From positions 1,674,001 to 1,738,000 of the forward strand of contig JAQFWX010000006.1 in the NCBI GenBank assembly GCA_027605045.1: 64,000 nucleotides of DNA, written 5' to 3'. The DNA comes from Phallus indusiatus. Taxonomy: Eukaryota > Basidiomycota > Agaricomycetes > Phallales > Phallaceae. This document shows, one piece after another, positions 6,037-56,700 of the stretch (positions within the stretch are counted from its first letter, which is position 1; each line of letters begins with the position of its first letter). The notes beneath the pieces are model-generated. The model saw only the letters and a list, made by a program, of their open reading frames with translations. It made no database searches and was not told the origin of the DNA. Both the position numbers and the translations under genes were made by a program.

Positions 6037-8714
6037 TCAAAGTGGTAGAGGAATGGTGAAGGCAACTGTCGATAGCCAATACAGGGAATGGCAGTAGGAA
6101 AAAGAGGTCTAATAGTCGGGCTTATAAAATCGTTTAGGCAGCGTCCTTAAGTACTTACGTTTTCTCCTACGAGCCATGCATGCTTTGGCCAAAACATGGT
6201 AAGGGCAGGATGAGAGGCGCCAGGGCCATAAGGCCCATAACTTTGTGTGGACCGATAAAATTTTCTGCAGTGCGTCCTCAACCAACGCTAGCGTTAACGC
6301 GTCTCCAGCCATATTCTCTTCAGAGGTATTTTCCAATCAGTTATTCTAGCGGTATAATACTATGCAGACTTTGTCAGTGGAATGATTACGTGTCATACGA
6401 CGACTACGAGGTACTGGTGAAGATTTGAGGTTTGTAAATTTGAAACTCCGTCTCTTGCGGACACGGCCAAAGCCACAACGGGTTTGAGCCTGGCTGTCCA
6501 ATGGCTGACGAGGCCTCGGCGGACCTCAGCGTTCTCGTCCTGACCGGAGAAAAAATGGAGAGGAGGACAACAGTCGGGTATACTCAGCCCGGATTCAGCG
6601 GTGCTCGGCCTCAACTTCAACATCAACCACGCAGATCCATCTACCAGTCGTGACGGAAAAATTCTGCGCGCAGGCCTTCAAACGAGTGTCGAGCAGCAAA
6701 GTCCACAGGTGCATTCGTACGCCTTAACGAACCGTCACAAGAATCAACGTGTCTTCATATCTCAGGTCGCCCTCAATTCTCAAATGCACGGCGAAGGTGG
6801 ATCCCAATCCCATGGAAACGCTGGGCCGAAGCTGGGCCTCTCCACGGGCTGGGTCCCAGATCTCAGTCTTCAGCGAGAGAGTAATACACTCCGTCAATGG
6901 CGCAAACTTTCAGTGTCCGGCGTCAATTATTGCCTTCTCTACATTCAATACCTACCTTTTCGTGACTGAGCGCTCAGCTGGAAGTACGTTTGCATTCGTT
7001 TTCAGGATATACCTTTATTGCTCATCACACGCATCACATTCTATTTTAGCCTCGACCTCAGTCGTTGACGTCATCTCCCAAAGTCATCCCCTCCACATCG
7101 CGTTCACCGCCTTGAGGACCCCTTTGCTCTAATGGACACATACCATCTAACACTCGTTCTTGTCCTCGGTTTTCTTCGCGAGATTCTTCGCCAACAGCTA
7201 TAGCATTCGCCGATATTGATGGAAACTCTTTCCTAGTGGTTCGCCCCGCTCAACATCAACAAACGTTCAGCTGCAGCCGGCAGTCGAGTCTTCCGTCCGC
7301 CAACTCAACAACGCGCTCGGTTTTCTGCATCGCAAATTTGAATAAATTCAACAACTTCCCGATAGAGTGTCTCATATTCTGGAAGAACTGGAGAGCGCAC
7401 GCAACACCCGCTCAACCACAGCCCTCGTGACTCAAGCACAATCTAGTCTTTCACCAACTGCGGCCGCAACAGCAATCACAACAGCAATCACAACCACACT
7501 CCTCACAACAGCTACCGTCACCATCTTCGCCACCGCCATCCCCTCAACGGGAATCTTACCTTGATATAACGGATCCAAGCGCCATCGCAACCGAACTCTT
7601 CTTCCCAAGTTCCTAGAACAAAAAATGCCCGCATTCGCATCGACAACAAGTCAGCAATAAAAACTGCTTTCAAGTTCACTTTTGATCAAGACGCGTTGTG
7701 ATATTATGTACGTCTAATCGGCTGCTACGTAGGTAGGTACGCGGTATTTAATGAAAACCGCCATTTTACTTTTCGTTATCTCGTTCTCAAGAAGTCACTT
7801 GTCCAGCTCTTTGAGGATGACTTTGGTGCATGCAAACAAAGGCCAAAATGGGTTTTGAAGAGAGCGCCTCAGGAGCGTGGCAGGAAAGATACGGGAACCA
7901 GCGACTGTGTGTGTATGAAAATGGAGGGAAAACTGGGGGAAAATCAGTTGTTTATTGTAGATAATGGTGTTTGGTATATATACAGTTTCTGAACAATGAA
8001 GCCACGCGTTGTGTAACGTGACTCGGTAATATCGCGTGTTTCGGGACTTTCCTTGTGTAGCCCGTCGCGGATCACATATCAGCTTACTTGTAAGAATGTT
8101 TGCATTTATTCAGTCAGTTCATAACCAATACCTTCTTCTCCAGACTGCTGAAACACGAACGTTTTTTCCTCTTATGTACGAACCTTGCGGCTTTTTTACT
8201 TGCATCTCCCAAAACATGGTATCGTCACAGATTTTCATACTTTCAAGGGTAGCGAGAACGACGAAATTACACCATTGGAGTAATGCGATCGAGAAATCCT
8301 TGGCAGGATGTACAGTTTCAGGTCTCCGTCCGAGTCGATGTACTACAATTGTTGTTGGAAGTGCAAATGATATCCCGTGTCGCTTTCTGCACGAGGAGTG
8401 AATAAATTAAAGTTGATAAGCCGACGATGTAGTGGAGATGTATATTTGTATCATAACGAATACATAAAAGAGGTAGTTTGGTTTTATCCAGCGGTCCAAG
8501 CCACAAAATACTACGAGTAAGTTATTCACTCAAAGACAACAATACACAGTATCAATGTTTGACTCCATACCTCACTGAAGATTTATGCGCACACATCGGT
8601 TCACGGCTACTATTATTTGGCGAGTGGCTTTGCAATTGGCTACACGCATCCAAACGCTTTTTTTGTCCAATTAGCTACGGAGCGAAGGACTTGCCGCTGT
8701 GTATGTATTATCTC
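6037..8714. repeat. Diverged copy of the duplicated flank; gene remnants, no intact gene
   Basis: Stretches match the flanks of the other two units. 6160-6260 (minus) ends in an exon-like segment reading FWPKHAWLVGENV with a GTAAGT donor; the equivalents at about 13500-13620 and 21890-22010 read LWPNYVWLVGENV. 6415-6600 matches 13765-13930 and 22135-22300. 6680-6700 matches 14640-14660 and 23110-23135. 6700-6960 has an open minus-strand block with KTEIWDPARGEAQLRPSV. 7260-7420 (plus) reads like a helical protein (SVRQLNNALGFLHRKFE) but is interrupted by TAA. 8300-8480 matches 14745-14880, the DUF6535 downstream flank. I see only remnants. Confidence 0.5.
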
Positions 8715-11700
8715 TTAGCATACAGTCTGATAATGATAAACTTTGGGGAAAAATACCTCATTCGGACCAGGCACCTGGGCACGCTCTTCATTATCATGAT
8801 CGTCGTCCAACATTGCACCCGAGGATGTAAATAGTTCCTGGGGCCGACCTATGATGTGTCCGAACACGCGCAAAGACACCTGCAACCGACGATCAAAGTC
8901 TGCCCTTTCGGGAGATCGCCAAAAGTCATTAGGCACAATCGCGAAGTCGTCGAGTCGTTCTCGACGTTTCATGGCAGTAAACAGTGTATCCAACTCTTTC
9001 CTTTTAAGTTTCGATTTTACAAGGAGGAAAAATTGTTTCGGATTCTGTCCGAACCTCAAAATCAGTTCCCATAGTCGGACGAGCATGGACGAGTTGTAGA
9101 AAAGAGTGAATAGGGATATGTTCATAGTGACAGAATCGAGGAGATTCATTAAGAGCGGGTATATGACTGTGCCCTGTTCGCTTGCATCACCACAATTCCC
9201 CAAGTTTCGAAGACATTTTGATAATTGGGACCTGGCTTCGGGGTCATTCTTCGAGAGGATTGTGTCAAGTAAATGGTGGCGGTTCCGTGACAAAAGCAAA
9301 ACTGTGAACATGGGAGATGTGTATTTTGATAATTTTGGGTCGAGATCTCGTGAGCACCATTGATAGATGAGGGAGATCTCGTGATAATCCATACGAGGAA
9401 ATAAGGTAGCATCTTCGGCACTGATGGTGCCCAGACACTGTACTGCCGCAACTCTGGCGTCATCTGTCATAGACTTGGACCAGAAAGAGTCCACGCAGAG
9501 AATTTCTTTGAAGAAAGTGAAGCGGTTGTCGAATGTCCGAGGTACAGCGGAGTAGTACGATGAGAAGCTGCTGAACAGATGTTCCAATGACTTCTGTCTC
9601 TTTTCCTTGTTGGTGATGAATGGATGATCGGAGGTAAGTTGGTGGTAGATGGTGAGAAGGAGACGATATCGTATTGCGTAGGATTTGTTTTCTGAGGAAA
9701 AGTCAGGTTTTTCAAGTCCAAAGTAATGACACAGGTATCCGAATTTCCACCATCCCAACTCGTCACTATCAAAGGATACTAACCCCGCACTATGTAAGAG
9801 TTTACGAGTGGGATCGACACTACAATCGAAGAGAGTTGACTTTTGAAGCTCGAGTATATGCGCAGCTATTGTACGATTCCATAAGTCCCGTCTTAGGAGA
9901 TTACACCACATGGCTAGCGGGAGCTTGACAGAACCACCGCCATTGATTAAACGGTCGAGTAATAGTTCATCGAAACTCAGGCCGATAAAGTTACCGGATG
10001 TTCTTTCCAGAATGCGAAGATAGGCTTTATACTCCGCTTCCTCTAGCCCACTTTCGATCACATGATTGTTGAGTAGATGCCAGTGAGAAGGGGGAAAAGC
10101 GGGACCACCACCACTCAAGAAATCCAGACAAAGTCCATAACGCAAATCCAGGAGGTTTGTTTCGCTGATTTCCAGAGTACGAGAGAGTGTGTCTATGTTC
10201 TCCGTTTTGAACTGTCCAGCGATAGTTGGGTGGACAGCTACAGAGCGAGCAATAATCCGATGAACGCTCATATCAGCCGAAGCCGTGTAGAGCCATTTGA
10301 CCGCTTGGGAATCGAGAAAAGTTGCATTTGAGACAGCTTGCTTCATATTCTCTTCTCTCCACTTTGTGAATTTCGGAAATTCGGCGGAAAATATCTCGGG
10401 TCGATGTCTTTGAACACCCCAATACACGTCACGAGCCAACTCCGAGATATGTGTGAAAAGATGTCGAAAAGGGTCCAGGATGTAGCGAACGAGATGTTGA
10501 ATTGTAAGTAGAGCTTGGAAGTTCACTCTTTCCCAAATAACCCGAAAACCTTGATCCAAAATCTTGCTAATCCAGCGATGACATTCTCGCACGAAGAAAA
10601 AGAGAATTCCAGCATAAATCGTTAACGAGGTGGTATATGGGCATTCCGGATACCAAACGGGCAGTATCACGGAGACGAAGTATAATGTAAAAGTGGTTCC
10701 CGCGATCGCGACAATCGTCCAGGCAATGTGAGCGTCCAGTGGGAACAATAATACCGCAATTCCAGTGAGGAACAGACTGACAGCGATGTGAAGGAGGATA
10801 GGAAGGAGGTCGACGATCACTGCGACCTTCCATTGTTCAAAACCGTTGAACCGCAATTGCCTAGCCCTCACTTTTTCATTCGCCGTTCCGGAAAATGAAA
10901 CTAAATAATAATACAGCCATTGCTTGGCGAGAACCGCAAACAACGCCGTAGATAGGGTAATCGCGAGGCTGGTGAACCATAGACCGTTCACCAAAGATGC
11001 GTTTGTTGACGGTGTGAATGGCGAAGTAGGGGTTATCGTTGAGAAGGGTACATTGGTTATAGGTAGCCCACTGAACTGTGCCCTTAGTAGTTGGACCGTT
11101 TCGAATTGTAATGACGCGGTAACTTGTGTGTTATCTCGCTGAAGGTTCGTGGAAGCCTGTGAGATGAATGTCGTTATAACGCCGGAAAAGAGACCAGCCT
11201 GATAAACAATCAGTGTTGAATGTATAATTGCAAGCAAAGGTATTACTTACGAAAACCAGTAATACATCAACTGTTTCTTTCCACCCTTCTACTCTCTCAC
11301 GATCGAAAGCCTCGGCTTCATCAAGGTAAGTCAACCAGATCCGAGCGTTCTCAGCTGTCTCTTTTCCAAATTGATCTCGTGGATATTTTTGCTCGTAATC
11401 ATACCGATTATTTGCTTATGAGACGAGATGTTAGAAATGCACAGACGACATTAAGTTACTTCAAGAAAAACTCACAACCAACATTTGGCGATAATCCTTT
11501 CGTCAACCCAAAAAATTTCTTGCGTCCTGGCATGTTTTGTTGAATGTGCGGATTAGGATTGTTGTTGAACATTCCTTGACCGGGGTCGGATGCAGCCTCT
11601 ACAATTGTGCAGTGTCAGCACCAGAGATATTTTCATCTGAATCGTAAAACGAGAAACTAACCAAGAAACTCGCGGAAGAGGCCCACCAATCTTTCCATAT

Positions 11701-15081: not shown

Positions 15082-18000
15082 TTAGCATACAGTCTGGAGA
15101 AAGATAAACCTTTGCAGAAGAAATACCTCATTCTGAAGAGGCATCTGGGCGCGCTCTTCATTATCATGGTCGTTGTCCAACATTGCACTTGAGGATGTAG
15201 ATAGTTCCTGGGACGGACCTATCATTGACCCAAACATGTGCAAAGACGCCTGCAACCGATGATCAAAGTCTGCCTTGCAGTGGTCATCAAAAAAATCGAA
15301 GGACGGATCCGTCGAGTTGAGCCGTTCTCGATCTTTCATGGCAGTAAATAGCTCATCCAATTTTTTTCTGTCAAGTTTCGATTTCACAAGGAGGAGAAAC
15401 TGTTTTAGATCCTGTTCGAACATCAAAATCAGTTCCCATAACCGGACGAGCACGGACGAGTTGTAGAAATGAGTTAACAGGGGCATCTTCCCAGACTTGA
15501 GGAGATCCATTAAGAGTGGGTATATAACCTCGCCTTCTGTCATCGGATCGTGGCAATTCCCCAAGTTTCGAAGACATGTGGATAAGTTGAACGCGGCTTC
15601 AGGGTCATTCGAGAGGATTGTGGATAAATGGTGGCGGTTCTGTGACAAGAGCAAGACTGTCAAAATAGCAGATGTGGGACGTGATAAGTTCACATCGAGA
15701 TCTCGTGAACACCATTTATATATATGAGACAGTTCGTGATAATCCGTACAAGGATATAGGGTAGCCTCTACGGCACGGATGGCGCCCAGACACCCTACTG
15801 CTGCTTCTCTGGCGGCATCTGTCATGAACTCGGACCAGAATGAGTTCGTGCAGAGAATGTCTTTGAAGAACGTGAAGCAGCGCTCGGGTGTCCGAGGTAA
15901 AGTGAGGCGAAAATTAAAGGTGTACGATTGAAATCTGTCAAACAGACGATACAAGGACTTCCGTATGCCTTCTTCGTTGTTGAAATCGAGAGACACTTCA
16001 GGAAATAGTATGCCATAAAACGTGATGCGTCCCGACTCGTCCAACATATATGGTGTAATTTCCGAAACAATGGAGGTAGTAAGTTGGCGATATACCGTGA
16101 CAAGGAGGCGATAACTTGTTGCATAGGATTCGTTTTCAGAGGAAAAGTCAGGTTTGCCAAGTCCAAAGTAATTAAAGAGGTATTCAAATTTCCACCATCC
16201 CAACTCGTAACTATCAAAGGATACTAACCCCGCGCTATCTAGGAGTTCACAAGTGGGATCAAATCCGAAATCGAAGAGATAGAGCCCTCCATGGTTGAGT
16301 ATATGCGCAGCCATTGTACTATTGTGTGGGATCCGTTTTAGGAAGCAACACCACATGGCTAGTGGGAGCTTGACAGAATCATCTCCGATGGTTGAAAGGT
16401 CGAAGGTTGGTCTATGAAATCTCGAGAGATGAGAGTGACCAAATGTTTCCATCGGAAAGGAAAGATAGCTTTTATACTCTGCTTCCTCTAGCCCACTTTC
16501 GGCCACATGATCGGCAATAGATGCCAGTAGACGCCAGTGAGGGGCAGAAAAGTGATTATTCAAGAGATCTAGACAAAGTCCATAACGCAAATCCTGGACA
16601 TTTGTTTCGCTGACCCCAAGAGTACGGGAGAGTGTGTATATGTTATCCCTTTTAAACTGTCCAGCGATAGTTGGGTGGACAGCTACACAGCGAGCAATCA
16701 TCTGATGTACGCTCCTATCAGGCGAGGTCGTGTAAAGCCAATTGATGGCCTCGAAGTCGAGAAAAGTCGCATTTGAGATAGCTTTCTTGATATTCTCTTC
16801 TCTCCACTTGGCGAATTTCGGGAAATTAGTGAAGAATATTCTGGGTTGATATCTTTTGAAGCCGCGGCGCACGTGACCACTCGCCTTGGAGATGAACATG
16901 AACAGATGTCGGAAGAGGTCCAGGACGTAGTGAATGAGATGCTGAATAGTACGTTGAGCCTGAAAATTCACGCTCTTCCAAGCAGCCCGAAATCCTTTAT
17001 CCAAGACCGTCCTAGCCCAGCGAAGAATTTCTCGCAGAACGAAAAAAAAGATTCCAGCATAAATTGTCAACGAGGTTGTGTACGGGCATGCCGAATACCG
17101 AATGGGTAACATCACGGAGATGAAATATAGAGTAAAAGTGATGCTTGTGATGACGACGATGGTCCAGGCGATGTGAGTGTCCAGCGGGAACAATAGTATT
17201 ATAATCCCAGCGAGGAACAGACCGACAGCGAGGTGGAGGAGAATGGGGAGGAGGTCGACTATGGCTGCGACTTTCCATTGTTCAAAACCATTGAGCCGCA
17301 ACTGTCTCGCCCTCACTTTTTCATTTGCCGTTCCAGAAATTGAAGCCATGTAATAATATAACCACTGTTTAGCAAGGACTGCAAATAGCGCTGCAGAAAG
17401 CGTAATCGCCAGACTGGTGAACCATAGACCGTTTACCAAAGATGCATTTGTTGACGGTGTGAATGGCGAAGTAGGGGTTATCGTTGAGTTTGGTACATTA
17501 TTTATGGGTAGGCCAATGAATTGTGCCCGTAGTATCTGAACTGCTTCGAATAGTAGTGACGCAGTGACTTGTGTACTATCTTGACGGAGGCTTTGAGAAG
17601 CTTGTGAAATAAATGTCGTTATAACACCAGAAAAGAGACCAGCCTGAAACGAGAGATAAGTTTTGAAAAATATAATAACAAATAAACTTCTGCCTACAAA
17701 AACTAAGAGAACATCAACCGTCTCTTTCCACCCTTCTACTCTCTCGCGATCAGATGCCTCGGCTTCGTCAAGGTAAGTCAACCAAATCCGAGCGTTTGGC
17801 GCTGTCTCTTCTCCAAATCGATCTCGTGGATATTTTTGCTCGTAATTGTATCGATTATTTGCTTATGTAGCGAGATGTTAAAAGTGAACAGATGACATCG
17901 AGTCACTTAAAGAAACACTCACAACCAACGTCTGGCGATAATCTTTTTTTCAGCCCAAGAAGCCTCTTGCGCAATGGCATGTTTCGTTGAGTGTGGGGAG

Positions 18001-31126: not shown

Positions 31127-33643
31127 GTTGCAAGAAGTCCGCTCTTCAGAGAACCCTGATGCAAAGACGCCGCCAAGTTGAAGCCTAGAAAAACATTGAA
31201 TATACCAACGTTAAAAAGCTTCGCCCACTTTTTTGACCCCATTAGAGCACGTACTTTCGTTACCGTTAGTATTAATTCCTCATACAAGCCAATTTGAGCG
31301 AAGAAAAGGATTTGCGGCCTATTTGAAATCAAATCAACCCAAGTTCACTGACCGTTCATGGCTGTTTAGAAACAAAGAGCCAAAAGAAGTTTAGAGGCTC
31401 AAATTGCTTACGTGAGCGTGTCAACTGCCGATGCGGCATTTGAAATTGTTTCGCACTGGCATTTGCGGTGTCGCAACGACAGTGGACGCCCTTCATCTGC
31501 AACTGGTGCATCCATCTAAATCTCTCCATCGGACCCATTCTTCTTTTTCGGGAGAAAACTGTTTCCAATGTATTGGTATGATACACCTCTTGAATATTGT
31601 TTAACTCGATCATACGTTAAAAAGTGAAGGTTTGAATCGAAAAAGGCGTTATATTAAGACATCAAGTAAAAGTAAAATTATGGTCGCATTGTCGGATTTA
31701 AACTCCTCCGCATGACTCACACCAACACGAGAACCTTGGTCTTTTGGTCCTGCGGCTCCAGTCCGTGTCGTAGAGCAATCTTCATTTGTGCGACATGTTC
31801 GGCCAAGATCACGGGTCTGTTCAGGTTCAAGTTTGATGTACTAATATCTTTTAACCAAAAGTATTTTTTTAGATACTGCGATATCGATCTCGAAGTTCTA
31901 AGGACTGTTGCAAAATTTGGTCACTCCTTGGAAACTTGACCTTTGAGGTACAACACGAGTGCGTGGTTTTCTCTCCCTGAAGGCACTGTAAGCACACATG
32001 AGCACAAATTGTCAGGGCTGTTTCTCAGCTATAAAAGCTCGAAGCTCAAAATGTGCTTATTGAGGTATCTATTTCTTTCCCTATGAGAAAGGGATCTGAT
32101 CTGGATTACTTCCCGAAATGCTTCAGATTGAACGTTTATCCAGCCTGTTCTCCGATTCCATTGCACGAAGGTCCATAGTAGAGTCTGTGTTCCCGTGACG
32201 ATTATTGTTCTCCTCAGAACGCGATCACCAGTGATTTGAAAAGCCATTTGTGAATGCGTATGTACACGTTGTTGCAGCTCATCAGCTCATTGTATGAGGT
32301 AATTCGGTTGTATTTCAAGTTCCTGGTTTGGACAGGGTCGTCTCTCTATGGTATAATCTTCAGTCTATTATTTTCTGACATTTTCATGCGCAGCAATTGG
32401 TTCTTAAAGCGCTACAAGGAGAACCTGGACCCCTGATCACTTAAAATGGACAGACTTTTCATTTTTAGGATAGCCGGAGCGAGCGTCAGCACCACTAGAC
32501 CATATGTAAACGACATCTAAAGGCACGATGCTTTCAACAATCCTGTTCAACACCGCCTCTAACCTGACCGAATCACTTGGACTATTCTTGAAGAAGATTG
32601 ACGTGGTGATGTTCGGGCTTTGTTGAAATCATGCGCTACGGTTATTCTTATATGATTCCTCTATTAAAAAAATACTCGCCCATCGTTCAGCGTGCCTTCA
32701 CGGCATTGTAAAAATAATGGTTACCTGCAAGGCACTATCAGCAAAGAAATTTTATGCATAGATACCGTTTAAATCGGTCATCAATCGGTGTATTTCTAAT
32801 TATTTTATCATAATTAGATAGACGGAGCCGGTGTCTCTTCCAAGTAACTTCCAAGCAACCATTACTCTTTTCAGTCCTTCTTTCCAGTTTCCTGGCAAAG
32901 AAAGTAAATACGCATATTCCTCATTATTATCGTTTCCTCACAAATATTCCTTGTACAGAACTCTTTTTTGAGACAAACCAGCCCGGGAAGCGACACTCCT
33001 GTTCGGGATGGGTTTCTAAACCAGACTGGCGCATGAGTGGAGTATCGGTAGAATCCGTCCTCCACATTTAGAATAATAGACTTATCCGAGCCTGAATGGT
33101 TTTAAGATTCCTGATCTTGTGAGCCGCTGATTTTCTTTTCTCCAATATGGTTCGTTTCATTTGAATTTAGCAGATTCAGCCGAGCCAGTACCCTTAGTAT
33201 TACCCAACCAGATACTCTACCGGGTAGCTAAAATGGAAACTGAAGAAGACCTCGGCTTTTAAACTGATGAAAATGAAGGGATGTTTACAGATTATACTCA
33301 TTGGAGTTATGTTAATCACGGGGTTGATGATTCATCAACTTGTCGATCGACTTGGACAGCTGTATTAGCGTTCTACTCGAAAAAGTAAGGTATGCTTCTG
33401 ATTTGCTAGTCATTTTAGACTTCCGGTCCAGATTTTCTAAATTTTTTAGGTACTCAATTCTTTCAAGCCTGACAATCAAGATTATCATTATGCACCCACT
33501 ATTCCCGAGATGGTTGAACCTTTTTCCAGTGGTTTCTCACTACGGAGTGCATCCCTGATATCCTTTCTTTGACTAATGAAGTCACTTTATCTTGTGCTCC
33601 GTTTTCGTAAGTGTATTTCTGACGTGATACACCTCTTGAGTCG
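31127..33643. other. Intergenic, no gene seen
   Basis: Frames of 60-85 codons on both strands lack recognisable motifs, start context and introns. No inverted or direct terminal repeats noticed. Confidence 0.4.
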
Positions 33644-33650
33644 TATAAAA
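33644..33650 (+). promoter_or_regulatory. TATA box (TATAAAA)
   Basis: It lies 103 bases upstream of the secreted-peptide ATG at 33747, within CGTATAAAAGAACG. Confidence 0.55.
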
Positions 33651-33746
33651 GAACGACAAAATATTTCACATACTCCCAGAAACAAATTACAGTTTCTTTC
33701 AGCCTTGAAGGTTTTCACCCACATCTCTTCTTACATACTATCCACC

Positions 33747-34344
33747 ATGCACTTCTCCACCTTGCTCACTGCGCTCGTTGCTACCTGGGCGGTCATTGCG
33801 TCCCCCCTTCCTCAACAATCTGGTGAGTAACATCACATTATTTTATAGTAATAAATAACTAAATGCCTCTGTTCCAGCTTCTGTAAGTATTTCATAGTAC
33901 ATTCGACGACGCAGCAATGTGAACCTATCATAGGTTGATGGCTGTGGAAACAGAGGTGGCAGATCTTGCAATATCACACCACGTGCCGAGTCAATCAGTG
34001 AGTCCTTTGATAGTGCAGTTTGAAATTGAAATATCACTCATCATTCTTCATGTCTCTTTTAGCTCTTGTACGTTTTCATATGGCATATAAGGTCGCCAAC
34101 TCTTACTGACTCATATTTTAGCCTACTGTGACTGATCCAGCGGCCGTTCCTCCCACTGAAACTAATGGTCAGCACTCTCATCTCTTTTTCTTTTTCGCGA
34201 TAAGCTTGTTTACTCATAGACATACATTCAGTCGCTGTACGTTATACGTTATATATGTAACATGTTGGAACAGTAAGTGAGCTTACTAAAAATGTAATTT
34301 TACAGAATGGATGTGGCAATCGTGGCGGGAGATCTTGTAACTAG
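33747..34344 (+). CDS. Small secreted peptide with duplicated CGNRGGRSCN motif and three 5-nt micro-exons
   Basis: Seven exons give 79 aa: 33747-33822, 33878-33882, 33934-33997, 34063-34067, 34122-34167, 34232-34236 and 34306-34344. Exons 2, 4 and 6 are only five bases (CTTCT, CTCTT, TCGCT). Each completes a phase-1 codon and adds one more residue. Every intron (51-69 bases) has a GT donor (GTAAGT, GTGAGT, GTACGT or GTCAGC) and an AG acceptor. The product starts with a signal peptide (MHFSTLLTALVATWAVIAS). Two copies follow of GCGNRGGRSCN, one at about residues 30-40 and one at the extreme C-terminus. The paired cysteines could form a small disulfide loop. The Thr/Pro-rich spacer is PTVTDPAAVPPTE. 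Function unknown; it could be an effector-like or signalling peptide. Confidence 0.65.
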
Positions 34345-34428
34345 ATTTGTATTTTCTTCTCTCTCTCTCTCTTAGTGCTAGGAATTTTCCATTTAATTTT
34401 CTTAACTCTAAGATGAATTAAATCATAT

Positions 34429-34988
34429 TGTTAGAGCGTCACGTGACTGACGTGAGATGAAAACACTCAATTTCTTTAAGACTTCTAATTCGTTCAGGTT
34501 GTTTGTGTTGAGATATACATTTTGTTGGATTAAGTCAGCTTATACTTCGACGAGTCTATGAAGACTTAATGTCTGAGTAGTAGTAGTAGCGACTCAGAGA
34601 TCTCTAGATAGGAGGCGTATGGTAGTATAACCTGATGAGGAGAAGTGTAATTACAGGTTGAATACTATATACTATCTGATATGGTCTGTGCATAAGGAAA
34701 CTACTATGCGGGATATCTAATATCAGTACTGATCTTAATCAGACCTACAGGAAGAGTATAGCTAAATATAACGAGTCATGTGAGATTGCACACATAATTC
34801 CAACACATTTAAACCGTAGTCATCATATACAGCTATATAAAGGAAGTCCGATTCCTTAACTATGAAAACATTGACTCCCAATAAAGTAAGAGATCACGCA
34901 ACTGACTTGGACTCCAAAAAACTCTTGTTTACCTGTTTAAACATATATACTTGAGTTCGAGGGCCCAGTGGAGTGGCTCCCTATTACA
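34429..34988. mobile_element. Possible solo LTR
   Basis: The block begins TGTTAGAGCGTCACGTGAC and ends CCCTATTACA. It contains a TATA box (CTATATAAAGG at about 34832) followed by CAATAAAG (about 34881), the layout of an LTR promoter and polyadenylation signal. I found no matching target-site duplication (CATAT left, TTGCA right), so the boundaries are uncertain. Confidence 0.3.
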
Positions 34989-37900
34989 TTGCATTACAAG
35001 CTCTTTTTCTTTTCTTTTACAATGCGTTCCCACTATCTTTGTAATAGATGGCCTTATTCCCAGCGTATTCAATTTGCCCTTGGTGAATCTCTCCCCGGCT
35101 TCCCCTGCATTTAACTAACACGCTTCAAGTTTTGAATTTGAATCGACATTAAGTAGGTCCAATTTTGAGTTCTGTCAGAGTTGGCTATACATATTATAAT
35201 AGTGTATTTGAAATCTCTCCCGGTTTCGACGCATCTCCTTCGTCTCTATGACTCATGGAGTCTAGCTGGGCTGAAACAGTTCAATTGAACTAACTGGACG
35301 AAAGAAGTGTCAACCAGTGTGTTCAAATTCCAGTTAGTTGGCAACCTTAAATTTCGTGACATATGTCTGGTTTCCGTTCTATTCCTTATGCATTATCCTT
35401 CAAATTGGCCAGCCCAATGCAGATTCATTTTCCGTGCCACTTTGATCTTGTTTTGATTCTTTTTCCCAGCCCTGTCCTTACCCGATGCTTTACAGGCTTT
35501 TTCTGGTTCCCATTCAGTTGGAACTCGGGTATAAGAATCTAGCATAAATCCGTCCCCAAGGTGTAATATCCGTCATCCTTGACACAAAACTAAGCTTTGC
35601 CAGATTCAATTCCCATCCCACGAAATTCAAATAATTGAATGTTTTTATGCGATCACGTCGACGACGTACTTTTCTCTTTCTTTTTATTGCTATTAAATAG
35701 CGTTGTCGTCGTTATTTTGTTTTGGTCTATACACGCGTTCTTCTCGTTGGCTTGACTGGCTCAAGCTCAAGCTTCATCAAATTCTTCTTACTTATCTTCT
35801 TTCCCTCTGAGTCGTTTGATCTATTGTCGAGTAGCGTATAAAGGTCCGTTCCCAGTACGTGTGTCCTCTTCAATTTTTCGTGCGTATGCTGACAGTGCCA
35901 TGATGTATTGACAGCAAACATCGTGAACCTTTCTTCGAAGTTTTGCGGCTGCTGCCGGAGACCCACTGCACTCGTTACGATTATCTTCAACATCATGTCA
36001 TCCTTGATTCTTGAACGAGTTAGACACTGACCGAAAATACTGGGCCTTTTTCTTGCAACTCTCCCTCTTATAAATAAGCCTAGTATCTGTGAGTAATCGT
36101 ATTTCTAGTGTAACAGCTGCCCGTTTCCCACCGTCTATCAATTTTTCCTTTTTGCGCATTTAGAACTACTAGCCCATCGTTGATCCGCTTTCGGTGTTGG
36201 AAGAGAGCAATTTGGTTGTTCTGAATGAGATTGCATTAGAGTGCACGAATATTTGAAGAATTTCTAAAGTAAAGTTGTTCATCAGGAATATAGCCAATGC
36301 AGAAGGCCGGTTTTCATCGTGTGACACGTCAGATCTCGTCAGAATTCGAATTCAAATTGCTGCACCGTAATTAAACCGTATTTTCTAGGTCCTAACTAGA
36401 CGAAGAACTCAAGACACAGAATAAAAATAGGTAAGTTTCCATGTCTTACGACTTGATCTTTATTAAAGTTATGACTCATCCATTTAAATAAGTCCTCGGA
36501 AGGAAGCCTGAGAAGGCCAGCAGATATGATATATGAGAGTAATTGTATTGAAATACATGTGAAGAAACACAATTATATCCAATTCGATAAAATCGTCTCC
36601 CTTGCATGTGTATCAACATTGAATTTGAAGTAGCGATAGAATAATGTCCAGGTACCGGCGCCAGTAACAACTACTACGTATTTCACCAATATGTGTTTTT
36701 GTTTTTGAGAAGTTGACAGTTTTGGTTGATAGGCATCTTCGTGATATCCAGGTCAAGAGTTCGCACTTTAATATCGTAATTTGTATTTGCACCATTAGCA
36801 CCCGGTCCAACGCGTAGATCATTGCTCTGGAATCGCGTGGTATCTCGAGTCCTAGCAACTTCGTTCTATAATTGAAACAGTTGAGGTTTAAAGGTCTTCA
36901 CATGAGAGTTCATTCGTTAGAAGTTCCTGTTTCGAAGAAAATAAATCAATTGTGCTCAAATGAGCAATTATAAAGTGGGGGAGGCGATGTATCAGAGAAT
37001 ATGTTTTGGAGCTTCGGATAGGTTTATATATATATACCGTATTCATATGCAGATCTGATACCATTATATTCAAGCTTAGGAGCTCGGATAATCGATGGGC
37101 CGCCACGGCTGTTCAAACGAATTTCAGGACGGCAAATTCGTATTCCCCTATATACACAGAGAATATATCAGCAGCTGACAGTAACGGTGGTATACGATTA
37201 GAGCCTGGTATGGACATACGATACATTATTCATTGACAAGTAACAGCCTGCGGAGTATGTCTTCCCCCATCATGCGACACCGATGATCGCAAATGTCCGT
37301 GTCAACGTCACAATTGGAAGGCACCCCAGAATCAATGTATGAGAATACCGGTGATTAATCAAAATTGAGTGAAACTATTGCTGAGGCAATGAGAGGCAAT
37401 GTTGGCACTGGACATCGTGATGCAAAACAGGGGTTCAAATTCGGATTTTGGGGCGAATCCGCAATTTGGGCTAGATTAGGATTAGTCTCACATATAAATA
37501 AAGGAAAACACTCCAAAAAGGTTTGATTCTTTCTCCTAGCTGTTTCTCTCTCTCAGGCTTCAGAACAGTGCTTGTGGGAGATTCTGTGTTCTCCGGTTGC
37601 TCTCCACCGGGTGTCATTAGTAAGCACGGAACCTAACGCGAACGTCTCTGCATCTCATGCCATACATCCAAGGAATTTCACCAAGATATCCTATCACAGC
37701 CTTGATTACAGCTCTGATCAAATTGCTGTCGCTGTCTCATCTCATTTTAGAACCGGATACACCGGAAGTATAAGACCTCTAGTCGGTTTTCTGGTCGCCC
37801 CTGACTCGCCTCTGACGCCCGTCACCACCCTCTCCTCTCTCACATACTACTCAGCACATCCAAGCTCAAGTATCGCCACTAACTCGACATTCTCTGAGCA

Positions 37901-38857: not shown

Positions 38858-38983
38858 CATCCGACCTCTCTTTGTTTCAACCTTTATCGCATTCAGTAAC
38901 AACTAAACCTCCATTTCTTTCCTCCCATCACGGTTTACGACATCAACAAAACTACAAACGAAAAAAAAAACAGGACGACATCC

Positions 38984-40807
38984 ATGATTATGCCAATTTC
39001 CTTTATACCCTATCCGTTGCCCAAACCTTCTGAATGGCTGACTCTAACACCTTGGTTCTCCAAATCACCACCCTCTTCTCCGGTTTTACCTTCGCCTTCG
39101 TCTTCCCCGAAAGCGCAGCGATCTTCAGCAACAATGTCATCCCGCCCAACGCCACCAGCGCCGATACTATTACATTCTCCGGTGACGACGACGGCGACAT
39201 CAATCAAAACGCCAGAGATGACACAAGTGCGTCAACACGCGATAATATCTGGAGGCACGTTTTTATTTCCAAGGTCGGATAAGGTGCAAGTCGCTCATCA
39301 GAGTTCGGGGGGTTCTAATGAACGGGAAGACCAGCGGAACATCAATGATCCGGTATCGACAAAGATGAAGAAAAAGACGAAGAACAATGAAACAGAGGCG
39401 GTCATCGAGGAGACCCCCAGGTCTGTGCAACCGAGAGCTTTGAAGCAGAATGATGTGGTCTGGTTGTTCGATCTCAAGTCTGCGCGGGGTGCAGTCCCAT
39501 GGTGCGTTCCTTGTCGTACATTGTACGAACGTTACGCTGATTTCTTGGTTTCCTGCTATTCCTATCTTCTCATCCTTCCTTCCCCGCCACTCATTGTCTT
39601 TGCTTTTTGGTCGTACGTTTATCCTTTATGGCAATCCTACTTCCAACATACGTAGGCACCCCAATACATGGAAGATTCGGTACGCTGCTCCACGTTTTTC
39701 CTTGCGGGTATACCGGAAGCCTCATACATGTCTTGAAACAGGTTGGCCCTGAACTACAAACAGATACCATACACTACAGTGTGGTTAAGCTATCCGTCGA
39801 TGGAGCCTGTCCTGAAGCAGCTAGGCGTTCCGCCAATGCAGCGCAATAGAACAGGGAAGGTACATTATAGTGTACCGGTTATCGTTGATTGGAGGATGTG
39901 TTCTACCGGAACTGGTGGCGGAAGAGGACAACAACAAAACCAGGGAGAGTTATGGGCTGTTTCCGGATCCGAAAGAATCTTGGACTATCTCGATGGAACA
40001 TCTGTCATTACCATCACGACCAGATCAACCTCTTCTTCTAATCACACATCGCGATCTCGCAAGTCAAAGAGTCAAAGCCCACCACCACTTTCATCGTCAT
40101 CGTCATCGTCACGCTCGCAATCACATCCACCCTCCTCGTCATACCGCTCTTACTCTGGTTCAACCGCAGCCTCATCTTCTTCGACATCACTAGCCCGCCG
40201 ACCCAAACTCTTACAATCAATGTTCGATTCGATGGTCGAACGTGTGCTCGATCCTCCATTCTGGAAGATGATATTGCCCCTTGCGTGGATAGGTGGCGTC
40301 CTTGATGAAGAGAGTAAAGTGTACATCTTAAAGATTAAAGGATATCCTGTCGGAGAAGGCGGATTAGGCGCAAGCGCAGGCGTGGACGCAGACGCAGACA
40401 ATATCGGACAAACGGAAAACACGTCGACATCGGGAAGAACAAAGAGATGGAATCCAGAAAGATATGTGACGAGTCGGGACTGGGATGCGCTTAGAGATGG
40501 ATTTGAAACTATTGCTGCTTTTTGCGAGATGCATGGGATTGAGATTGGGGGCATCGCCAAGGGGAAGGATTCGTCGTCCTCAGATGAAGAACGTTCACGG
40601 CACCCGGACTCAGACTCGGACTCGGACTCAGGCTCAACAGGTTCTCTGGTGTTAACACGAGTGGAAATCGTACTGATCGCGTATCTTGCTGCACTACACG
40701 AGTGCGTCTCATCAGAAAAGTGGGCCGAAATCAAGGATACATGGTGTTCCGGCGCATGGGGCGTTTTATGGGACCGCTCCGCACACGTAAGGTCTAACGT
40801 TGCATGA
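38984..40807 (+). CDS. Glutathione S-transferase-fold protein with long disordered extensions
   Basis: Three exons join in frame: 38984-39501, 39656-39679 (24 bases) and 39742-40807 (up to 535 aa). After a Ser/Pro-rich and then charged N-terminal extension comes DVVWLFDLKS, then NTWKIRLALNYKQIPYTTVW created by splicing. PSMEPVLKQLGVPP, HYSVPVIVD and VSGSERILDYLDG follow. This is the thioredoxin-like GST N-domain with the cis-Pro (VP) and S/E-S glutathione-binding region. A helical C-domain follows (about residues 340-535), interrupted by a poly-Ser linker in the N-domain/C-domain hinge and an acidic Asp/Ser run. GSTs conjugate glutathione to electrophiles; activity here is unproven. The start is uncertain: an overlapping frame at 39034-39282 also looks coding, and the core could start at a later ATG. 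Confidence 0.65.
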
Positions 40808-41142
40808 TTGTTGGATTGTTTGGTCCGAGAGGAAAATCGACAACAACAACTATTTGATATTTTTCTCTCTTCTTTTCACTGGTCTTCATACATTGATGGT
40901 TATCATACCTAATAATTGTGCATGCCACGCACACACGGTATACCCCAATAGTCACCGAATCATTTCTCTTTTACGAATTATTGAATGAAGTTAGTTATTC
41001 GTGCTTTTCTTTGAATTATTGTAGAAACATCTTGGATGGGCTTCGTGTATTTTGGTAGGGTTATCGTTATAGTGAATGTGTTATCCTGAAGAGCTTGACA
41101 CACGTACCGAACCTTGTCGGGTGTAGCCGAGAGCTTGAGGGC
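40808..41142. other. Short intergenic, 3' flank of GST gene and left border of the composite element
   Basis: No gene. Just outside the element, GTGTAGCC at 41121-41128 and GGCTACAC at 41140-41147 form an 8-bp inverted repeat that overlaps the element's first bases. Confidence 0.4.
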
Positions 41143-53704: not shown

Positions 53705-56700
53705 TTAAATATCTTCATCGGCAGGTTCTTTGTCAGTCTCGAGCTCTGCTTCTGCCAGGTCTGGCATATGCTGTATGAGCATCTCGAGACCTGGGTGCTT
53801 TTGTATAACATAGACGCGGTTGCTATTTGGAACTCTCCAAAGACCGACAATGGTCGAAATTTCAGAGATCTGTAGAACGTGAAGTTCATCTATCTTGTCC
53901 CAGTGTCCCCGAATAGCAACACCAAACAGTTCCTCTATCTCACGCAATGGCTTATAGATTACCACACTTTTATTTTCACCTTGGTAAGTGAAGTTATAAA
54001 AGGCGTAAGCCTCTCCAAATATCATCTGTGGACCTCGTGCCTACTCACCATCAAATATAAATGCCGAATGAAATTCATTGAAACCTACCTTAAACCACCG
54101 GTAGTGTCTCTTGGCAGGATTTTCCGGTCCTTCGGTAAGCAAACTTCGAAGCACATACCCATTCGACAATCTAAGTTTTCCCCACCGCTGATAATCGTCG
54201 AGTAAAAGACCCGGAGACCCCAGCCATTTCGCAATAGCGGACAATTCAGCTTTTAGTTGATTATGCGCCAAGTTTCCCCACAACTTTTTCTTGGGGGAAG
54301 GAGGTTGTCTAGAGAACATAGGCATCGAAGACGAATCCCGTGAAGATGAAGTTGAATTTAAACGAGCTGGAAAGGACGTCAGCTGGGGATAGTATAATTG
54401 AAGGATCTCGATAAGCTCCTTCTCTTTAACAAGCCGGGTGAGGTTCGCAAAGGGAGCTTTGCGAGAGCGAACTCGATGACCAAGCTCACCAATTGATCGT
54501 TCAACGGTAGCTTGAGAGCCTAGTCGAACGGATCCATTCCAGCGTATATGTGCCGGAATGTGGATGAGCTGGAATACACAGAGACGACACCTTGAGATAT
54601 TCTTGGGATCGTTATTGACATAAATTTTCTCGAATCCGGTGAGAAATTGTGCGATTTTTGAATGAAGATTTTGAAGATCTGTTTCCGTCCTTCCAACCAG
54701 AGTCATTGCATACTCTACAATGTAAACAAATTCCGCAAAATTTCGGATTACTTCAAGATTGGAATCATCGGTAAATTCGAGCATCATCGGAACAAGATAC
54801 CAATGAAGCAGAGCCATCCATTCATATATTTTGTATTGGCTCTGGTTTTTCAAGAAAACGTCCCGAACAGGACCACAGAAAGAAGGGGGCAATGTTGTCA
54901 TGGCCAGGGGAATATTTTCACCGATCATTTGAAGGTATGATTTGTCGACATGACCCGGTTCATCCTTTGACGTTTTCTTTGCCCATAAATCCCAAAAGAA
55001 CGGTAGACAGTTTTCATAGAACAAGTGAAAAGGGTCGAATGGAAAGAAGCTCGGGTGTCGAAATGCAGGACTAGCGGCACATATTGTGAGTCTTGAAATA
55101 CCAGTTTGTTGTGTTATACGTGTTCTCAGAACATCTGTGGTTGCATTATTCAATTTTTGGATTGTTTCCCAATAATGCTTCTGATTTCGCAACGGGAGTT
55201 TGTCGATGTTGTAGTTCGGCCGTTCTGGGTTGTACTTCTCTGCTTCAGGTGGCTGAAGTGGATAATAATTCCGTTTAGAACCCTTTTCGCTTGTTTTTGC
55301 GCCTTTTACCAGAACGAACCTGTCCCCATAAACGGCTGAATGTCCAGCCATGCCGCTGACCTTGGTTGATCCAGGCATGTCCCCAAGACCCATGGTGATA
55401 TACGCTCTGAGCATGAAGAAGGTCGAATCGACGGCATCCCAGACCCAGATCCCTTCAGATGCCCGGGCCATCTCTTGAAATAATGGTACCAGGAAAGAGT
55501 CGAGATTTTGAGGGCTATTTGGGCCCGGAATGACTAGAGTGATGATGACGTTACTAGATTTATAGCGTATATGCGGGGGCAAATTTAGCAGGATCAATAT
55601 AGCGACCCAAACATTCGATTGTCGCTTCATTGTTAATTGAGCTCCGTCGGAGGAGAATGCGAAGGCAATGTCTCGACGATCTTTGAAAAGACCCATGTGA
55701 TTGTAGTGTGTTGCATGCACCTTCGAATCTGGGAAATCTTTGTATCTACTAGCCGCTCCGACGAGGTGCAAAGCCTCCTTGAGATAACGGTCTCTATAAC
55801 GCATGTCGTTTGCGGTAGTTTTGTTGGCAAAGAGAGCGCGAATTGTTGCCATAACTGGTAGAACGGCGAACTGGGCACGGGGCACTGGTTTCTGCTGTGA
55901 TACTCCGGTAATATCACGGTATCTTGTCACCATACAAGGATTGCCATTCTTTGTTGACTCGTGAGGGCAGTGTTTCAATTGGGCATACGACCCAGAATAC
56001 GCTATACAGCTCGCTAGACACATATCTATCATAACTACCCGGTAATCGACTAAACGCTCCGCCAGTTGTCGAACGTTGTGTAATGAGAGGATGGTTTTTC
56101 CTGTTTCACGGGCGATGAGACCTGCATATTGTTTATATCCTAAATCGGTACCATTCGTGTTCCACCATACAATATAGTGAGATAACGATATTCTTTCTTG
56201 TTCCGTGAGGTCATGAGGGCGTGAAGCATAAGGCGGAGGGTCCTTAGAACAAGTATATCCACCTCGCAACTCTTCGCGCAGTTTCACCACCACGTCCGGA
56301 AGCGGTTCCTCGCTGTGACCGTCATTGGGATATTCGTCGTAGGTTTCCTCGTTATTCGAGCCAGAACACTCATCGACGTCAACATCCACGTCAGGTGGTT
56401 CAATGTCGCTGTGGTCTTCTCTTTGGCAGTGCTTCAAGTTATCTGGGATTTCTTCGGGTATATCAGAGTCTGAGTCATCGAATACGTTGATTTCAACGGT
56501 ATCTATAATCTCCTACTATAAGAGTGTGTATTTTAATGATAAATTGAACATTACCATAAGCGTAATCATTGTTCGAAACTAATACTGACAGTCACACAAA
56601 AGATACCGCATACTACAGATACAATGACTCACTTTCATCGTTATTACCGCCCGGTTCAGCGTCAACCTCAACATTTATTTCGTCCGTGTTATTATTATCC

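Follow-up and report, generated by a model that had tools for sequence, protein, structure and literature searches.

The window, a stretch of 64,000 nucleotides of the Phallus indusiatus genome (contig C162, bases 1674001-1738000), contains a seven-exon gene, W, on the forward strand at positions 33747-34344. The exons are 76, 5, 64, 5, 46, 5 and 39 nt long and are separated by six introns of 51-69 nt, each of which begins with GT and ends with AG. The phases following the successive exons are 1, 0, 1, 0, 1 and 0, and the frame is open up to a TAG stop codon. Exon 1 (33747..33822) carries the start codon, a putative signal peptide (about residues 1-18) and the beginning of the secreted part, and ends in phase 1. 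Micro-exon 1, CTTCT (33878..33882), is entered in phase 1 and left in phase 0 and together with the flanking G encodes Ala-Ser. It is followed by the first motif exon (33934..33997, encoding VDGCGNRGGRSCNITPRAESI), micro-exon 2, CTCTT (34063..34067), intron 4 (34068..34121) and the spacer exon of the gene model (34122..34167, encoding PTVTDPAAVPPTETN). Micro-exon 3, TCGCT (34232..34236), and the terminal motif exon (34306..34344, NGCGNRGGRSCN and the TAG) are predicted from the gene model. The first-pass annotation of this DNA had described normal exons alternating with three 5-nt exons of the same phase behavior within about 600 bases, which is exactly what the gene model contains, and its coordinates for the first triplet (33822/33878-33882/33934) are correct to the base.

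The product of W is 79 residues long and reads, in order of its segments, MHFSTLLTALVATWAVIASPLPQQS-AS-VDGCGNRGGRSCNITPRAESI-TL-PTVTDPAAVPPTETN-VA-NGCGNRGGRSCN. It has an N-terminal hydrophobic stretch (Kyte-Doolittle peak of 2.15 in an 11-residue window) and two identical copies of GCGNRGGRSCN, which are defined by the gene model and by conservation and are encoded at 33940..33972 and 34309..34341, the second copy closing the protein. The translation thus bears out the earlier description of a signal peptide and two identical Cys-loop motifs, the second of them C-terminal. The signal peptide may be cut between V-I-A and S, a site read by eye from the sequence. Scans of the 64-kb window for tRNA genes and Rfam families, and a search for tandem repeats at 33000-35400, returned nothing that explains the W locus.

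Upstream of the gene, a TATA box (TATAAAA, 33644..33650, forward strand) lies 103 nt 5' of the ATG, and a TACAGTTTC element occupies 33688..33696 on the same strand. The repeat directly 3' of W (34519-34810, about 285 bp) has 18 more near full-length copies in the genome with 93-97% identity, besides shorter or more diverged ones, and looks like a young non-coding mobile element. Elsewhere in the window there are a tnp2-type transposase ORF (PF02992, 798 residues, 54041-56437, reverse strand) and two similar large ORFs at 8715-11237 and 15082-17781 on the reverse strand. The ORF at 8715-11237 has a DUF6535 domain, and its named relatives, from Armillaria and Mycena, are distant (34-44% identity over part of the protein).

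The W gene belongs to a family. Five further genes with the same design, A to E, each with one to three motifs, were found in the 67.2-Mb assembly of 206 contigs, together with a divergent seventh member, F. A, B and D came from the pattern search of the genome, E from a peptide query, C from reading the loci, and F from a query with the B protein. Genes E (1743909-1744481, two motifs) and D (1748707-1749614, five micro-exons and three motifs) lie on the reverse strand of C162, the contig of the window. Genes C (162377-162636, forward strand, one motif and an 11-nt micro-exon), B (163053-163454, reverse strand, two motifs) and A (165756-166286, reverse strand, two motifs) form a cluster on contig C140. 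All three are also present on C130, which is taken as the second haplotype of the cluster. No near-identical second copy of the C162 gene region, or of a control stretch at 38900-40900, was found in the assembly, and C162 seems to be present in it as one copy. Because the genome searches score only the best candidates, seven genes are a lower bound. Two other pattern matches were dropped as the motif is not continued: CGNRGGLSAA followed by a stop on C112, of which C128 holds a near copy, and CGNSGG on C111. Among 20 ORFs selected around the C162 and C140 loci and scanned, no Pfam family was common to the two surroundings.

Taken together, the six micro-exon genes contain 33 introns, all between 46 and 69 nt long. 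Of their 16 micro-exons, 15 measure 5 nt, the exception being the 11-nt micro-exon of C. In all six the phase is 1 after exon 1 and 0 after every micro-exon. In A the phase after the last spacer exon is 0, which would fit a fusion of this exon with its micro-exon through the loss of one intron (34 + 5 = 39 nt). Gene F, on C2 (segment L063, 276-638), carries a single motif, CGQRAGRSCN, with Q for N and A for G, and its match on C150 is identical over 30 residues. It is readable without a micro-exon: in a two-exon model, exon 1 of which ends in phase 1, it encodes 103 residues and has the C-terminal sequence TDGCGQRAGRSCN; there are also five alternative in-frame models with one intron and 30 with two. 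The introns of F could show how the micro-exons of the other six genes originated. Overall, the motif is present three times in D, twice in W, A, B and E and once in C and F, the precursors are 49-106 residues long, and a motif stands at the C-terminus in all seven genes, including the one-motif genes C and F. The TATA-type site recurs at -93 to -109 in five of the six micro-exon genes (B is the exception) and at -95 in F. The element YACAGYTTC, found at -52 to -64 in W, A, D and E and absent from B and C, is thus common to four of the six upstream regions; this TACAGTTTC/YACAGYTTC element perhaps lies near the transcription start.

The splicing of the W gene is seen in one public sequence of independent origin, P0001, a 146-residue protein encoded by a single contig of 1989 nt. 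Its source label, 'lgn', presumably stands for the Logan assemblies of public read sets. P0001 was the sole match, with an E-value of 5.8e-17 among 1829 candidates, of a four-member family profile run against about 5.8 billion proteins; these searches preceded the finding of F, and in so large a database a relative with one 11-residue motif could fall below the threshold. It is more than 1.75 times as long as the single query and surfaced only with the alignment-based search; the single-sequence search with the W product, whose sensitivity for such a short motif is limited, returned no relatives. The collection contains named fungal proteins, yet the sole relative that it yielded is this unnamed ORF. 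Over its full length P0001 is an exact translation of the window positions 33510-33822, 33878-33882, 33934-33997 and 34063 onward. Introns 1, 2 and 3 are spliced out, micro-exons 1 and 2 are in frame and intron 4 is unspliced. In the genomic interval spanned by the first gap there is a single AG-N5-GT site, which is the proposed micro-exon 1.

The match requires TGA to be read as Trp at two places, probably an artefact of the gene caller, which would have chosen code 4 automatically; code-4 calling of this kind may blur further fungal transcripts of the same collection. With the standard code the frame of P0001 meets a stop within intron 4, so that a one-motif product would result. P0001 also reaches past the TATA box on its 5' side and may thus derive from an immature transcript or from read-through. 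It is one contig, keeps intron 4 and does not cover micro-exon 3, and so represents a partly spliced product. Of the three triplets across which spliced reads had been proposed as a check, the first is joined in frame in P0001, the second is joined on its 5' side, with intron 4 kept on the other, and the third lies outside it.

Three 5-nt exons in one gene are improbable a priori, which gives some weight to the suspicion that the micro-exons are an artefact of a reading frame forced on non-coding sequence. P0001, however, already joins micro-exons 1 and 2 in frame, and five paralogs have the same phases. The pattern is also far from what chance produces. When a micro-exon was required to have the form YAG-N5-GTRNG with flanking introns of at least 44 nt, 14 of the 16 intron-micro-exon-intron stretches of the six genes contained one, whereas 300 shuffles that preserved the dinucleotides averaged 0.04 of 16. 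The strict pattern is missed at micro-exon 2 of A, where the acceptor is AAG, and at the 11-nt micro-exon of C. The bare AG-N5-GT pattern was present in 15 of the 16 stretches and in 1.08 on average after shuffling. Branch-like CTNAY sequences 8-45 nt 5' of the acceptor were found in 22 of 33 introns, a modest excess over the 12.1 expected after simple shuffling.

The coding sequence of the motif likewise speaks against an artefact. Among 66 pairs of the 12 motif copies of six genes (F was left out), pS is 0.69 and pN is 0.03, and ten of the 11 positions are invariant; position 5 is R in eight copies, L in two and P in two. Judged from these substitution rates, the motif is under strong purifying selection. 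Between the haplotypes of A and B there are 3 changes in 435 exon sites, all of them synonymous, and 12 in 498 intron sites; those of C are set apart by one replacement in the micro-exon, an indel of 9 nt and 2 changes in 110 intron sites. Between D and E the two rates are similar: pS and pN are 0.14 and 0.16 in exon 1 with micro-exon 1, and 0.20 and 0.14 in the last four exons, the motif included. By the same measure, the protein outside the motif is weakly constrained. When micro-exon 1 is skipped, a stop follows within two codons of the junction codon in five of the six genes, so that no motif can be made there unless the micro-exon is included; in A the shifted frame continues for about ten codons further. 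An artefactual origin of the micro-exons is exceedingly improbable, and the gene structure, the micro-exons and the family are almost certainly real. The earlier claim that the micro-exons are genuine has accordingly gained a spliced sequence for two of them and five paralogs of the same design.

The first-pass annotation had also proposed that exon, micro-exon and motif were copied as a module. Because a micro-exon and the exon that follows it span phase 1 to phase 1, their duplication is harmless to the frame, a rule from which the terminal exon and the fused exon of A are excepted. Such an event is shown in D, where introns 3 and 7, 2 and 6, 4 and 8, and 5 and 9 (numbered from 0) pair at identities of 0.78, 0.71, 0.69 and 0.65. 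For reference, the median identity is 0.51 over 528 intron pairs and the maximum is 0.64 among the 376 between-gene pairs that remain without D-E, so the lowest of the four D values is barely above the between-gene maximum. The duplicated unit in D, as delimited by these introns, is the motif exon, a micro-exon, the spacer exon and a micro-exon with the introns after them. In W, for which the copying had been suggested, no such trace remains: none of its own intron pairs is among the 22 best, and any module duplication in W must therefore be older.

After the signal peptide, Cys residues are confined to the motifs, two in each, in all seven genes; the three others, one in D and two in E, are all within the signal peptide. 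This distribution fits one small disulfide ring per motif. The N-terminus is hydrophobic in all seven proteins by hydropathy, and the linkers, as read from the proteins, are rich in T, P, A and V. All 12 motif copies are preceded by D, E, N or Q, and in each gene the final residue of the last copy is Asn. None of the seven proteins contains a dibasic KR, RR, KK or RK site (A, B and C in both haplotypes). No match was found for the W protein in Pfam, NCBIfam or PDB, or for the D protein in NCBIfam. These results and the single relative P0001 agree with the earlier suggestion that such small peptides, secreted or processed, form a new class; the processing part of that suggestion is weakened, as the usual Kex2 sites are absent.

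The best reading is that the family consists of secreted disulfide-looped peptides which are released by a non-Kex2 route or act uncut. Transcription would start from the TATA promoter, whose sequence is present and whose activity is presumed. The introns of 46-69 nt would then be removed and the 5-nt exons kept, which for the sites other than micro-exons 1 and 2 of W is suggested by the conserved architecture. Splice sites at both ends of a 5-nt exon cannot be occupied simultaneously; from general splicing knowledge, the introns flanking such an exon would thus be removed one after the other. The signal peptide would route the product into the secretory pathway, and the two Cys of each motif, present in the sequence, are expected to close a nine-residue ring. 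The conserved active unit would be the ring and the C-terminal Asn, GCG[NQ]x[GA]GRSCN, while the S/T/P-rich spacers diverge; the internal copies could be cut behind the Asn by some non-Kex2 protease or kept as beads on a string. The explanation as a whole, from transcription to the conserved ring unit, is considered moderately probable, and it is somewhat probable, on the evidence of the sequences, that a disulfide-looped extracellular peptide is the functional unit. An extracellular role of the peptide as signal or effector is a plausible last step, which falls a little short of being probable. Several points weigh against the main reading: a lone 11-residue ring may be without a fixed fold, C varies between haplotypes by its indel and within its micro-exon, D and E have similar rates of replacement and silent change outside the motif, and F has an altered motif and is readable without a micro-exon.

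Three other fates of the precursor have to be weighed. It could remain uncut, with one to three disulfide rings on O-glycosylated S/T/P linkers, and serve as a multivalent binder of the cell wall or cell surface. The lack of dibasic sites in all seven proteins, the many T, P, A and V residues of the linkers and the short precursors of 49-106 residues would suit such a molecule. Multivalency, however, is not needed in C and F, which have a single motif, and the stop at the motif Asn in seven of seven genes suggests a defined end. This alternative is unlikely; with an uncut precursor, 'peptide' would be the wrong word for the active unit.

The constant borders of the motif, G...N in 12 of 12 copies with D, E, N or Q in front, bring to mind head-to-tail cyclization by an asparaginyl endopeptidase. 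The precursors of plant cyclotides and SFTI-type peptides have a comparable Gly at the start and Asn at the end of the cyclized unit. The C-terminal copies of the family, however, have no leaving group beyond the Asn. The two Peptidase_C13 matches, located on C3 and C151, are taken as an allele pair; the search ran exon by exon, and a legumain split over exons could escape it. The C3 match, the sole one compared, is nearer to the GPI-anchor transamidase GPI8 than to legumain (E-values of 9.8e-53 and 2.2e-14). Cyclization of this kind is very improbable.

The motif could also be the core of a modified cyclic peptide made from a RiPP precursor of the dikaritin (UstYa) type. UstYa matches do exist in the genome, and the nearest pair is about 30-32 kb from the C130/C140 cluster. 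Among the 20 matches listed, with exons and alleles counted apart, none is on C162 and none is beside the family genes; C162, C2 and C150, the home of four of the seven genes, are without a match. Dikaritin cores usually have an aromatic residue and the motif core has none, and the Kex2 sites are absent. A dikaritin origin is accordingly quite improbable. The pair on C140 consists of two convergent ORFs at 129.3-130.6 kb (segment L050, 7696-8247 on the forward and 8499-9014 on the reverse strand), about 32 kb from the three-gene cluster, and matches like this pair are also present on C130 and C70.

A link of the family to the mating locus was rejected, as the STE3 matches are on C153, C120 and C61. 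The groups of STE3 pheromone-receptor matches on these three contigs are probably the P mating-type locus. The profile PF02116 of STE2, the cognate receptor of alpha-type pheromones, had no matches in the genome, but it had none in the control genomes either; STE3 was matched by the same method.

The family suggests that runs of 5-nt exons, up to five per predicted gene, are in routine use in a fungus, and it offers a natural test bed for the splicing of exons so short that their two splice sites cannot be occupied together. Gene finders with a minimum exon length would be expected to overlook or fragment six of the seven. It can be proposed, tentatively and with some doubt, that the genes represent a class of peptide hormones or effectors of mushrooms that had escaped annotation, with a disulfide ring, a C-terminal Asn and no dependence on Kex2. 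The class would be encoded by genes with obligatory 5-nt exons, hard for standard gene finders, and its motif copies would have been added by in-frame duplication of a phase-1 module of micro-exon and exon.

No report of a peptide family with 5-nt micro-exons was found in the literature searched, most subscription papers lying outside it, and a search with the letters of the motif returned only an unrelated Leishmania paper. Schistosome micro-exon genes encode small secreted proteins from serial tiny exons, and their micro-exons are multiples of three. The family resembles them in making small secreted products from serial tiny exons and differs in that its micro-exons are not multiples of three (5 nt in 15 of 16, 11 nt in one); as the 5-nt exons are entered in phase 1 and left in phase 0, skipping one of them breaks the frame. 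Schistosome micro-exons are mentioned in the available part of PMC11121469, according to which no functional micro-exon of a filamentous fungus was on record before the Xlr2 switch of Trichoderma virens. Micro-exons in filamentous fungi are shared with Xlr2 and with the NACHT-ANK genes of Tuber melanosporum (excerpt of PMC3689799). Xlr2, however, as described in that part of PMC11121469, is a transcription factor gene with a single, alternatively spliced micro-exon, and the Tuber genes, in the same excerpt, are of the STAND type with codon-sized micro-exons; neither case is a family of secreted peptides with 5-nt exons in series.

On the side of the product, the survey of KEX2-processed repeat proteins (KEPs), in the portion of PMC6339444 at hand, requires at least three repeats and has a class of 9-24-residue repeats. 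Like the KEPs, the family consists of secreted repeat precursors, and its 11-residue motif falls within that class. Unlike them, it has no KR, RR, KK or RK in any of its seven proteins, and the minimum of three repeats is reached by D only, W having two.

The nearest analogues seen are the alpha-pheromone-like loop peptides, namely the two-Cys subgroup of the Ascomycete alpha-type sexual pheromones, for example WCTWRGQPCW (excerpt of PMC11077750), and QSWGGCGGRGTPCW, an alpha-like repeat peptide from the basidiomycete yeast Trichosporon oleaginosus (same portion of PMC6339444). With the alpha-type pheromones the family shares a secreted precursor, a repeated short peptide, two Cys able to form a ring and Gly inside the ring; QSWGGCGGRGTPCW in addition has GCGxRG followed by a second Cys. 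In contrast, the ring of the family is C-x7-C and not C-x6-C, and the family is encoded with micro-exons. The Trichosporon peptide, as presented there, has C-x6-C, a Trp and Kex2/STE13 sites, whereas no Trp is found within three residues of the motif in any of the 12 copies, and without dibasic Kex2 sites there is no STE13 signature behind one. Because the ring size and the processing sites differ, the family is not filed under the alpha-type pheromones. Should its peptide prove to be a signal, the basidiomycete alpha-pheromone-like peptides described in that portion of PMC6339444 would have in it a counterpart made without Kex2, and by analogy the family may work like a peptide of the alpha-pheromone type.
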